Origin: a virus
DNA: 20,278 bases
Reading direction: 5' to 3' (one strand)
Virus record (IMG/VR): IMGVR_UViG_3300005738_000081
Span: 1 to 20,278 of that record
Part shown: positions 10,648 through 17,220 of the stretch, piece by piece
Position numbering within the stretch: the stretch's first letter is position 1
Layout of the letters: the number at the start of each line of letters is the position of its first letter
The notes under the pieces: generated by a model
What the model saw: only the letters and a program-made list of their open reading frames with translations
What the model was told of the DNA's origin: nothing
Databases searched by the model: none
Made by a program: the position numbers and the translations under genes

Positions 10648-10655
10648 TATTTATT
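10648..10655 (-). promoter_or_regulatory. Late-promoter-like box upstream of gp6
   Basis: On the minus strand the gap between gp25 and gp6 reads CAATAAATAC. The core AATAAATA matches the T4 late consensus TATAAATA at 7 of 8 positions. It ends exactly 14 bases before the gp6 ATG, the same distance as the matching box before gp48. With T4 late geometry the transcript would start near 10642, giving a leader of about 9 bases. There is no Shine-Dalgarno in the gap. The repeat and spacing are observed; promoter function is inferred. Confidence 0.5.
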
Positions 10656-10675
10656 GGCTATTGTTAAATACCCAC

Positions 10676-11122
10676 TTAATTCAGTAACCCAGCATCTTCA
10701 TCAAATTTTAATCTTAAATTCTCTGAAATGTTGTAGGTCAAATAGGTCAACTGGCACTCAACTTGAATTCCACTAAGGTATTGGCTAACAGTTACAGCAT
10801 CTACTTGTACTCTGGGGTCATAGTTAATAATCTCGGTAACATTTTCAGCAACAAAATCCCTATTTGCTGTGGTCAATGGTTCATGCACCATATCCCATAT
10901 AATGGTGCCGAAATCGGGATCTTCTAGTTTTTCACCTTTACGTATATGAAATAGATTGATAATATCCTGTTTGATCAAAGCAATATCAAACAGTTTAAAA
11001 TTTGTATTATCAGGATTAACTGTGCTGATTCCTTTGTAAACTCTTTGTTTGGGCTGTACTGTGGCTCGCTGATTGGCTTGTACAGTGACTTGCTTGTATA
11101 ATTTTTTTTCTTCTGTGGACAT
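10676..11122 (-). CDS. gp25: Baseplate wedge protein gp25
   Basis: gp25 is a small wedge protein of the contractile-tail core, conserved also in type VI secretion and pyocin-like systems, where it links the wedge to sheath initiation. The 148 residues carry the family core: RKGE at 61-64, DPDFG at 68-72, a D-M-V-H-E-P stretch, then a helix ending INYDPRV (99-105) and a beta-rich C-terminus. T4 gp25 is 132 residues and has RKGS, DPEFG and NYEPR at matching places. About 40 extra N-terminal residues are polar and Gln/Lys-rich. The ATG at 11122 lies 15 bases after the gp5 stop. The only Shine-Dalgarno-like bases are AAAGG 12 bases upstream and a weak AGGT right next to the ATG, so coupling with gp5 is likely. 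Confidence 0.93.
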   Translation of the reverse strand: MSTEEKKLYKQVTVQANQRATVQPKQRVYKGISTVNPDNTNFKLFDIALIKQDIINLFHIRKGEKLEDPDFGTIIWDMVHEPLTTANRDFVAENVTEIINYDPRVQVDAVTVSQYLSGIQVECQLTYLTYNISENLRLKFDEDAGLLN

Positions 11123-15094: not shown

Positions 15095-15397
15095 TTATAT
15101 TCCTAGATAATCAAATAATGCTTTTTTTTCTGTGACATAAATTTCTGTACCTGCTGTAAAATCGAACACAGGATCTTTAATTGTATCAAAATTTCTTTGT
15201 GCAAATACCCACCACAGTTTAGGAGTTCCGTACAACACATGACTGGCAATATCTGGTCTTTGATGAAATTGAGCTTCTATGGTGTAAGGTAAATCGTATT
15301 GCGTTATGGGTACTGGTCTAGGCTGTAAAATATCTAGATAGTCCTCGTTTACTATTGGTGTAATAGCATAAGGCGATGTTTTGCTGTAATTTGACAT
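15095..15397 (-). CDS. gp53: Baseplate wedge protein gp53
   Basis: gp53 clamps neighbouring wedges together around gp6 in the T4 baseplate. This 100-residue form is about half the length of T4 gp53 but has the conserved core: PITQYDLPYTIEAQFHQRPD, then LYGTPKLWWVFAQRN, then DPVFDFTAGTEIYV, a short LysM-like end in which the protein finishes at a leucine/glycine-rich helix. The Tyr-Gly-x-Pro-x-x-Trp-Trp signature in the middle is the strongest evidence. The start ATG overlaps the last base of the gp48 stop (TAATG arrangement) and the stop is one base before the next gene, so translation of gp48, gp53 and the following gene is probably coupled. Confidence 0.9.
   Translation of the reverse strand: MSNYSKTSPYAITPIVNEDYLDILQPRPVPITQYDLPYTIEAQFHQRPDIASHVLYGTPKLWWVFAQRNFDTIKDPVFDFTAGTEIYVTEKKALFDYLGI
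15101..15105 (-). promoter_or_regulatory. Shine-Dalgarno site for the 816-residue gene, inside gp53
   Basis: TAGGA on the minus strand lies 7 bases before the ATG at 15093 and forms part of the last sense codons of gp53. It supports the chosen start and coupled expression. Confidence 0.65.
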
Positions 15398-16287
15398 TAG
15401 ATAAATCCATCTCCAGATTTCATATATCCGCCTTTAATAAATTTATTAAGACTAAACGTGCTTTGAGTAGTTCTGCTGTATTGTGGAGTGACATTTACTG
15501 TAACAATACTGGTGCTCGGTGCCCAACCTGTTGGTCCAGTAGATATGTCTTGTTGTGGTCCATTTGCTTGAAGTGTGCCTTCGCCTAAACTTGTTGAAAT
15601 ATAATCTACATCTTTGGGCATGTCAAATTGGAAACTGTTTATGATGACTGGAACGTTGTTAAAAACAAAATCTCCATAACCATTCAATCTAACAACTGGT
15701 GGTGGTTGACCTGCATCTGCATCAATTCCATAATTCATTTTAGTGATACTTCTCAAATAGTGAATACATGCAACCCAATATCTGGCTTCGGCGGCATTTT
15801 GCACAAAGAAATCTCCTGTGATGGTCATTTGATCCACTTGACTGTTTTGATATGAGTAGTAAGGATAGTTTGTGTGCACCGGTTGAATGGACTGATAGTT
15901 TGCTGATTGCGAAACCAACACAGTTGGAGTATAAGGAAAAACAAAGCCTGAAGTTTTCATCAATGGTGCTAACAAGTCAGAATCTGTTTCTGTCACATCT
16001 TTCATGGTGTTTGGCATGCTTAATCTTATGCGCCAGTCTTTTTCGCTGTCTTGAACAACCACATCTGCTTTCTTTATACTTTTTAAATCATAAAATTTGT
16101 TAGAGTAAGTAGAAAGCACTGAATTCCTTAGGTTTGTGAATTTGTTTGTTAATGAGCCCACTCCGTCCTTAACGGTGTTGACAATATCTGGCAGTTTTGC
16201 CGCTATTGTACTTTTTCCTTCATTAATCAGACCTTGGGCTTTGCCTGTGAGATTATCGGTAACTTTTTTAAAACTTTCGTTGCTCAT
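15397..16287 (-). CDS. gp48: Baseplate tail tube cap protein gp48
   Basis: gp48 sits on the hub and caps it as the platform from which the tail tube grows. The 296-residue product carries the T4-like pattern: VVVQDSEKDWRIRLSMP, SGFVFPYTPTVLVS, the ITGDFFVQNAAEARYWVACI stretch leading into a leucine-rich helix with SITKMNYG, then RLNGYGDFVFNNVPVII and a C-terminal strand VTVNVTPQYSR that ends in a flexible tail. The frame can be extended nine codons to a TTG at 16314, but I prefer the ATG at 16287 (MSNESFKK): the extension would overlap the likely late-promoter box. It is the first gene of the minus-strand operon. No Shine-Dalgarno is visible. The related tail-tube protein gp54 is the main alternative identity. 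Confidence 0.86.
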   Translation of the reverse strand: MSNESFKKVTDNLTGKAQGLINEGKSTIAAKLPDIVNTVKDGVGSLTNKFTNLRNSVLSTYSNKFYDLKSIKKADVVVQDSEKDWRIRLSMPNTMKDVTETDSDLLAPLMKTSGFVFPYTPTVLVSQSANYQSIQPVHTNYPYYSYQNSQVDQMTITGDFFVQNAAEARYWVACIHYLRSITKMNYGIDADAGQPPPVVRLNGYGDFVFNNVPVIINSFQFDMPKDVDYISTSLGEGTLQANGPQQDISTGPTGWAPSTSIVTVNVTPQYSRTTQSTFSLNKFIKGGYMKSGDGFI

Positions 16288-16301
16288 AATATTGATACAT
16301 T

Positions 16302-16309
16302 TATTTATT
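16302..16309 (-). promoter_or_regulatory. Late-promoter-like box for the baseplate operon
   Basis: The minus strand reads CAATAAATAA. AATAAATA differs from the T4 late element TATAAATA only at the first base. It ends 14 bases before the gp48 ATG, identical to the spacing of the same box before gp6. The predicted start near 16296 gives a leader of about 9 bases. The box overlaps the -35 of the divergent gp55 promoter. Promoter function is inferred from match, recurrence, spacing and gene class. Confidence 0.55.
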
Positions 16310-16336
16310 GACAAAATTAACTGCGTAGTTTATATT
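16308..16336 (+). promoter_or_regulatory. Host-sigma (sigma70-type) promoter of gp55
   Basis: TTGACA at 16308-16313 is a perfect -35. After exactly 17 bases comes TATATT (16331-16336), a 5 of 6 match to TATAAT. Transcription would start near 16343, only about 4 bases before the gp55 ATG at 16347, so the mRNA would be nearly leaderless. The -35 overlaps the late-promoter-like box on the other strand by two bases. Confidence 0.7.
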
Positions 16337-16337
16337 G

Positions 16338-16345
16338 TATAAATA
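16338..16345 (+). promoter_or_regulatory. Exact T4 late-promoter motif at the gp55 start
   Basis: The plus strand reads TATAAATA, identical to the T4 late consensus, ending one base before the gp55 ATG. With late-promoter geometry transcription would start a few bases inside gp55, missing its start codon. This makes a simple gp55 promoter role doubtful; a chance match in AT-rich DNA is quite possible. Confidence 0.25.
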
Positions 16346-16346
16346 T

Positions 16347-17189
16347 ATGGCATTGAAAAAAGTAAATTACCTCAATAATAGAGATCTACTGGCAGAGATA
16401 CACAAATCCAAGTCCAGTTTTTGCAGTTTTGTTGATGATGCGTATCATCAATACGACGTAATATTAACCGATATAGATAGAATAAATCTACGCACAATAG
16501 CAGAAGCCAAGCGAGCAAGAGCCAAGAGATTGTCTCAGAAAGCATATGAAACTGCCAAAAAGACCAATCCAAAGATACGTTTGAGTCAGTGTGAAGTCAA
16601 ATACACCAGTGTGCCCAAAGAAGATTTAGTTTTCAGAATATACACCTATGAGCATGTTCCAGACGAGCCTGGCAGAAAAAAGAATCCAAAAACAGTGGCA
16701 GATGGCAAAGTCAAAGTGAACTTTACCCCTTTTCAACATTGGAAGTTCGACGAAAAGGACAATTTAATTTGTGTGGGTAAAAGTCACTGGGAAGGTGGAA
16801 TGGAGAACGGATACTTTAACAAGGAAAAAGGCAAAGCCACCAATGAACTGGCAAAAATGTGGATGAAACTGTGTGAACGTTATGGCACCAGAGGTAACGT
16901 GAGAGGTTACACCTACAACGACGAAATGCAAGGACAAGCCATACTTCAATTGGCACAGATTGGTTTACAGTTTGATGAATCCAAATCAAACAATCCGTTT
17001 GCTTACTACACAGCGGCAGTGACCAATTCATTTGTGAGAATTATCAATATCGAAAAAAGAAATCAAAACATTAGAGATGATATATTAGAACTCAACAACA
17101 TGATGCCGAGTCTTACACGTCAAGCACAAACAATAAACAGTAAAACTCCTGCACCAAGTAAAACCAAAAAAAGTAAATCCAAAAAGTAG
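16347..17189 (+). CDS. gp55: Late-transcription sigma factor gp55 with a large insertion
   Basis: gp55 is the divergent sigma factor that directs host RNA polymerase to T4-type late promoters. The N-terminus (KVNYLNNRDLLAEI, residues 5-18) matches T4 gp55 (YNYVNNKELLQAI). The sigma region-2-like part (about 180-240) has RGYTYNDEM, LQFDESKSNNPFAYYT and FVRIINIEKRN, equivalent to T4 GYTQSWKQEM, FDETKYKNPHAYIT and FVQRIKKERK. Between these lie about 165 residues where T4 has about 45, so roughly 120 are extra: a basic helix (EAKRARAKRLSQKAYETAKK) then a beta-type stretch with KVKVNFTPFQHW. The C-terminus is Lys-rich (KTKKSKSKK) and lacks the hydrophobic SLDFLYE clamp-binding tail of T4 gp55. The frame extends to a TTG at 16335, but that lies within the -10, so ATG 16347 (280 residues) is chosen. 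It has no Shine-Dalgarno. Confidence 0.88.
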   Translation: MALKKVNYLNNRDLLAEIHKSKSSFCSFVDDAYHQYDVILTDIDRINLRTIAEAKRARAKRLSQKAYETAKKTNPKIRLSQCEVKYTSVPKEDLVFRIYTYEHVPDEPGRKKNPKTVADGKVKVNFTPFQHWKFDEKDNLICVGKSHWEGGMENGYFNKEKGKATNELAKMWMKLCERYGTRGNVRGYTYNDEMQGQAILQLAQIGLQFDESKSNNPFAYYTAAVTNSFVRIINIEKRNQNIRDDILELNNMMPSLTRQAQTINSKTPAPSKTKKSKSKK

Positions 17190-17191
17190 TC

Positions 17192-17220
17192 TTGACAATT
17201 TAAGTTTTAGACTTTAAACT
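17192..17220 (+). promoter_or_regulatory. Host-sigma (sigma70-type) promoter of gp47-gp46
   Basis: TTGACA at 17192-17197 is a perfect -35, followed after 17 bases by TAAACT (17215-17220), a 4 of 6 match to TATAAT. It starts three bases after the gp55 stop. The start near 17227 gives a leader of about 13 bases that contains the gp47 Shine-Dalgarno. It would allow gp47, gp46 and the small gene to be transcribed separately from gp55. Confidence 0.6.

Follow-up and report, generated by a model that had tools for sequence, protein, structure and literature searches.

How a late sigma factor gene is controlled when it stands back to back with the operon that its own product should activate is the question raised by the window, a virus record of 20,278 bases whose source is a large marine virus infecting bacteria. 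Its minus strand carries a T4-type baseplate operon (the gp48-position gene, gp53, a structural gene, gp5, gp25, gp6 and further), headed by the gp48-position virion structural gene (15397-16287, phrog_12050). Its plus strand carries gp55-gp47-gp46. Only 59 letters (16288-16346) separate the gp48 ATG (16287-16285, minus strand) from the gp55 ATG (16347-16349, plus strand). Neither gp48 nor gp6 is preceded by an obvious Shine-Dalgarno sequence in the window.

The gp55 product (16347-17189, plus strand, 280 aa) matched phrog_12791 over most of the protein (E=5e-81), phrog_234 at residues 158-261, a similarity that runs over sigma region 2, and T4 gp55 in PDB 7d7c and 7d7d (7d7c chain F, E=8e-5). 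These matches bear out its assignment to the T4 gp55 family of late sigma factors in the original prediction. PF16805 and PF02916, searched for the gp33 and gp45 sliding clamp partners, had no match in 10 records, and none in the controls either. Full-length similarity to gp55 was found in the jumbo phages PA5oct, RaK2, CBB, GAP32, 121Q and Atu_ph07 and in many marine IMG/VR contigs, and searching viral contigs with the gp55 proteins of Vibrio 2.275.O and Atu_ph07 brought up no additional relatives. The divergent order of gp48 and gp55 is retained in nearly all relatives looked at; in Atu_ph07 and a Sinorhizobium phage an additional gene sits between the two.

Overlapping promoters between gp48 and gp55

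The original prediction had placed in this gap a promoter facing gp55 and, on the other strand, a late-type box facing gp48, sharing two letters; we found all three at the positions given. The promoter, on the plus strand, consists of a -35 TTGACA (16308-16313) and a -10 TATATT (16331-16336) separated by exactly 17 letters, and the whole (16308-16336) scores 11/12 as a sigma70-type promoter (TTGACA, 16-18 bp, TATAAT). The late box facing gp48, AATAAATA, occupies 16302-16309 on the minus strand, with a predicted start at about 16296, and shares letters 16308-16309 with the gp55 -35. A minus-strand TTGTCA-N17-TATTAT was also considered as a gp48 promoter and rejected, its -10 overlapping the gp48 start codon.

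Taken by itself, the window offers only moderate evidence, because promoter-like sites across it show no excess (81 versus 75 expected) and because, in sequence of the gap's composition, the chance P is about 0.18 for a reverse ATAAATA, about 0.009 for a promoter scoring 11/12 or better and about 0.003 for both. That the observation is real was settled by conservation in relatives and by the rarity of ATAAATA, present in three copies in 20 kb against seven expected, each directly upstream of a gene. Aligning the gap across related phages had been proposed as a check, with loss of either box counting against the reading, and both boxes and their overlap persist in all 79 close relatives with sequence at the site, which form 21 clusters at 90% gp55 identity (two more loci end at contig edges). 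In every one, TATTTA(G)TTGAC is followed by an invariant 17-letter spacer and a -10, which reads TATAMT in most. The overlap of promoter and late box is thus confirmed. Among pairs at 65-75% gp55 identity, TATTTA is 100% identical, the -35 96%, the -10 86% and the -35/-10 spacer 76%, against 36% at four-fold degenerate sites and 32-43% in the flanks; the six letters of the late box outside the overlap are 100% conserved. A more distant group carries the late box as ACTAAATA, abutting the -35 with one additional base.

The fused element is also specific to this place. TATTTA(G)TTGAC occurs as a single copy per contig, at gp48/gp55, in contigs of up to 134 kb. A 22-base version was found in 102 IMG/VR stretches, one copy each, with gp55 downstream in 91 of the 93 that hold enough sequence and gp48 before it in 90 of 97. 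The clear exceptions, L204 and L273 (apparently one phage), have the TATTTATTGACAAAATTAACTG element in the gp25-gp6 gap, before gp6. We rejected a transplant of the whole element for these two: gp6 promoters generally bear the operator described below, and only the adjoining TTGAC is odd.

The two boxes fall into the two promoter classes of the lineage. In an unbiased count over seven contigs of 53-134 kb and the window, ATAAATA ranked first among the 7-mers upstream of genes (51 upstream segments with it in sense against 16 in antisense; 115 copies in total on both strands). Head, tail or connector genes made up 11 of the 20 genes scanned behind ATAAATA, and DNA metabolism none; behind TTGAC promoters a single gene of 20 was structural, and most others with a match were DNA-metabolic, ATPase or auxiliary metabolic genes. 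The octamers upstream of late genes resemble TATAAATA, as in T4-type late promoters. Assignment of the gp48-facing box to the late class and of the gp55-facing promoter to the early class is supported by these comparisons, as the original prediction had it. A further promoter of the early class, TTGACA-N17-TAAACT, faces gp47 (17192-17220, plus strand) and lacks the operator.

A palindrome inside the gp55 promoter

The spacer of the gp55 promoter holds a third element that the original prediction did not mention. A quasi-palindrome reading AATTAANTRCGYANTTWAT lies between the -35 and the -10 (operator-like palindrome AAATTAACTGCGTAGTTTAT, 16314-16333) and precedes the gp48 late box by about 16 bp. 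Spacer identity in the marine clade, well above the 36% of neutral sites, is too high for a sigma70 promoter alone and so points to such an element; in the freshwater clade the same spacer is neutral, at 28-33%.

The palindrome recurs 15-18 bp ahead of the gp6 late box and, in relatives, at the same distance from the late box of a baseplate-hub gene. In the window, gp6 is faced by a late box AATAAATA (10648-10655, minus strand), with the second operator copy, GAATTAAGTGGGTATTTAAC, upstream of it (10663-10682, minus strand). Among distinct gp6 loci, 66 of 71 gave an alignable site, always 27 bp ahead of ATAAATA, with the consensus AATTAaaTaCGcActTtac. A matrix trained on these gp6 promoter sites only ranked the gp48/gp55 gap first in the window, with a score of 20.7, ahead of the gp6 site (17.6) and of a site inside a gene (10.9), and in 26 of 28 distinct marine loci the top-scoring site fell in the gap. 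Four sites in the contig G002 scored at least 16.7, the next being 9.9; one of the four lies between the baseplate-hub gene and a portal-adjacent gene. Further copies in relatives (L085:4618-4637, L082:10983-11002, L102:5015-5034) were seen between divergent late genes, one being the hub gene and the other a pre-portal gene of about 735 aa, and in G002 beside a weakly QueC-like gene.

The matrix found the operator at 21 of 94 late promoters, its centre mostly 15-18 bp before the box, followed by a sharp drop in score, and no operator at the other 73. A simple operator pattern had 36 matches in the marine contigs versus 3 for the reversed pattern; in seven named jumbo phages it showed no excess (19 versus 19 reversed), and on the freshwater clade the matrix recognised 5 of 24. 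We had at one point taken the extended gp55 promoter as unique in each genome, a claim we dropped: the pattern demanded TTGAC and missed operator copies without it. Two-fold symmetry and recurrence at a few promoters are the marks of an operator bound by a dimeric regulator, and we infer that the palindrome is the operator of a phage dimeric regulator, common to gp55 and the baseplate late promoters.

A fourth element, equally absent from the original prediction, faces gp55 itself in the window phage and in the relatives closest to it (L001-L005, L011). This perfect T4-type late box, TATAAATA at 16338-16345 on the plus strand (TATAAATA or GATAAATA within this subclade, where (T/G)ATAAATA is kept), is separated from the operator by roughly the distance seen for the gp48 box on the opposite side and in this resembles other late promoters; forward late boxes are also found in other lineages (L077, L146, L161-L165). 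Its use is uncertain, since the predicted start, at about 16351, falls past the annotated gp55 ATG, within the annotated ORF and just before a TTG at 16353. In this subclade, late polymerase may sustain gp55 instead of shutting it off, and the box predicts late, self-sustaining gp55 synthesis, the reverse of a self-limiting loop. As a side observation, the TTG at 16353 lines up with the gp55 ATG of relatives, and a start at the annotated ATG (16347) makes the protein two residues longer in this subclade only.

Letter sharing is a matter of clade. The late box lies 9-11 bp from the gp55 -35 in several enterobacterial-type jumbo phages, 29 bp in PA5oct and exactly 42 bp in 25 distinct loci of a freshwater PA5oct-like clade (L131-L174). 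Conserved ATAAAC and TTTTATNNNGAAA were noted between late box and -35 in this last clade. With sequences aligned at the late box, the marine spacer matches the freshwater stretch that precedes the -35 at 57% with zero shift and at no more than 39% with other shifts. As separations outside the marine clade range over 9-42 bp or more, the overlap is inessential to the arrangement: judged from these alignments, back-to-back early and late promoters are general for this gene order, and the sharing of letters is a feature of the marine clade.

A candidate stacked control region and its alternatives

Built on the boxes, their classes and conservation and the recurring palindrome, all established by sequence comparison, our preferred model treats the gap as a divergent control region with stacked elements, comprising early and late promoters, mutual exclusion, a regulator at the palindrome and a second late box; we consider this probable. 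Early in infection, host sigma70 polymerase would read gp55-gp47-gp46 from TTGACA-N17-TATATT. Once gp55 is made, gp55-polymerase would open the ATAAATA promoter on the opposite strand, leading into gp48-gp53-gp5-gp25. Given the usual size of a polymerase footprint, sigma70-polymerase and gp55-polymerase should be unable to sit on the site together, and the geometry of the promoters thus suggests that the two complexes, occupying the same DNA, should exclude one another. A putative phage dimeric DNA-binding protein would occupy the palindrome between the gp55 -35 and -10 and hinder or modify the early promoter, repression being favoured there. As its site also lies near -28 of the late promoters of gp48, gp6 and the hub gene, the protein would link gp55 to a regulon of baseplate genes, and at these promoters the position allows either repression or MotA-like activation. 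In the subclade, the second late box would let late polymerase transcribe toward gp55 too. Counting against this stacked arrangement are the start of the forward-box RNA past the annotated ATG, the weak recognition of the freshwater clade by the operator matrix and the equal numbers of pattern and control matches in the named jumbo phages. Competition by the late polymerase might also be moot if host sigma70 is already inactive by the late phase. For the more specific proposal, that an undescribed palindrome-binding regulator of marine jumbo phages, with sites at about -28 of the baseplate late promoters (gp48, gp6 and hub) and within the gp55 early promoter, links production of the late sigma to a baseplate sub-programme of late transcription, we see an even chance.

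The original prediction read the gap as a simple self-limiting switch. On this model gp55-polymerase, once on the gp48 late box, covers the gp55 -35 and turns gp55 off without the help of an extra factor. Invariance of the overlap in the marine clade, a late box within 9-11 bp of a -35-like site in several enterobacterial-type jumbo phages and the necessary overlap of the polymerase footprints all suit it. We nevertheless find it unlikely as a full account: a forward TATAAATA faces gp55 in the same phage, with counterparts in the other lineages named above, another clade separates the two boxes by up to 42 bp or more, and the conserved palindrome in the spacer, recurring at gp6, is left unexplained while offering, between -35 and -10, an alternative control missing from that model. 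Compaction, by which independent promoters come to overlap through genome density and persist because indels break a box, with no regulatory interplay, would fit contigs that are 93-97% coding by ORF calls, an overlap that leaves no neutral letters, and the persistence of both promoters at different spacings elsewhere. It too appears improbable, as neither the 76% identity of a spacer that is neutral in a related clade nor the shared palindrome follows from it.

The TATTTA next to the -35 could also be an UP-like piece of the early promoter and no late promoter at all, since in the marine clade it is AT-rich and immediately precedes the -35. This can very nearly be dismissed, since the remaining TTGAC promoters lack TATTTA, the same box precedes dozens of structural genes without TTGAC, and a long stretch separates it from the -35 in other clades. 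What binds the palindrome is a separate matter: a host regulator could do so, or a special late holoenzyme could read the palindrome as an extension of its recognition sequence. The fixed register between palindrome and late box agrees with this, as does a related ATWAAC-N6-TTTTAT that holds the register in the freshwater clade. It remains a doubtful option when set against an operator on just 21 of 94 late promoters, a palindrome that at gp55 sits in an early promoter, and a two-fold symmetry suggestive of a dimer.

Relation to known phage systems

The late sigma, the late box and an RpoD-like gp55 promoter are already known. T4 late promoters are read by the gp55 sigma from an 8-bp TATA-type box that precedes the start by about one turn, without an upstream element (reviewed by Geiduschek and Kassavetis, PMC2988020). 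The sigma family and the type of box are common to T4 and the phages studied here; however, the palindrome centred near -28 on 21 of 94 late promoters is a conserved upstream element on a subset of them. Also, gp55 follows co-directional genes in the T4-like phages P-SSM4 and Melnitz, whereas here it diverges from gp48. In the jumbo phages CBB and GAP32, ATAAATA precedes structural genes and an RpoD-like promoter precedes the gp55 gene, and the passages of that account covered here do not discuss overlap or operator (PMC5259590). Their gp48/gp55 order is the same as here, but the CBB -35 is TGAAACG-like and goes with no operator excess, in contrast to the TTGACA and operator of the window.

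Overlapping early and late promoters serving one gene have been described in RB49, S-PM2 and Syn9 (PMC2984593). The forward TATAAATA would likewise give gp55 both promoter types. Unlike those pairs, the overlapping gp48 and gp55 promoters stand back to back, and a palindrome occupies the stretch between -35 and -10. In the accessible, incomplete literature we found no description of the invariant gp55 overlap or of the palindrome at baseplate late promoters.

Middle promoters of T4 bind the phage activator MotA near -30 and have a -10 element and no -35. The candidate regulator site at about -28 is alike in position, but it is an 18-20 bp palindrome of different sequence and stands on late promoters. 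Late transcription of the T4 type is usually portrayed as gp55 reading a plain octamer without an upstream element. If our reading is true, with a conserved operator on a subset of late promoters and in the gp55 early promoter, the late genes of this group would be sub-divided and the late sigma would be tied to one late-gene subset. The four sequence elements give separate predictions, and the 59-bp gap is small enough for complete in vitro dissection.

Two observations concern leader length. The leader from the gp55 early promoter is predicted at 0-5 nt in the window (16343-16347), and several late genes in G001, G004 and G011 have their ATG 5-6 nt past ATAAATA; the 0-5 nt leaders predicted for gp55 here and for these late genes are suggestive of leaderless mRNAs.
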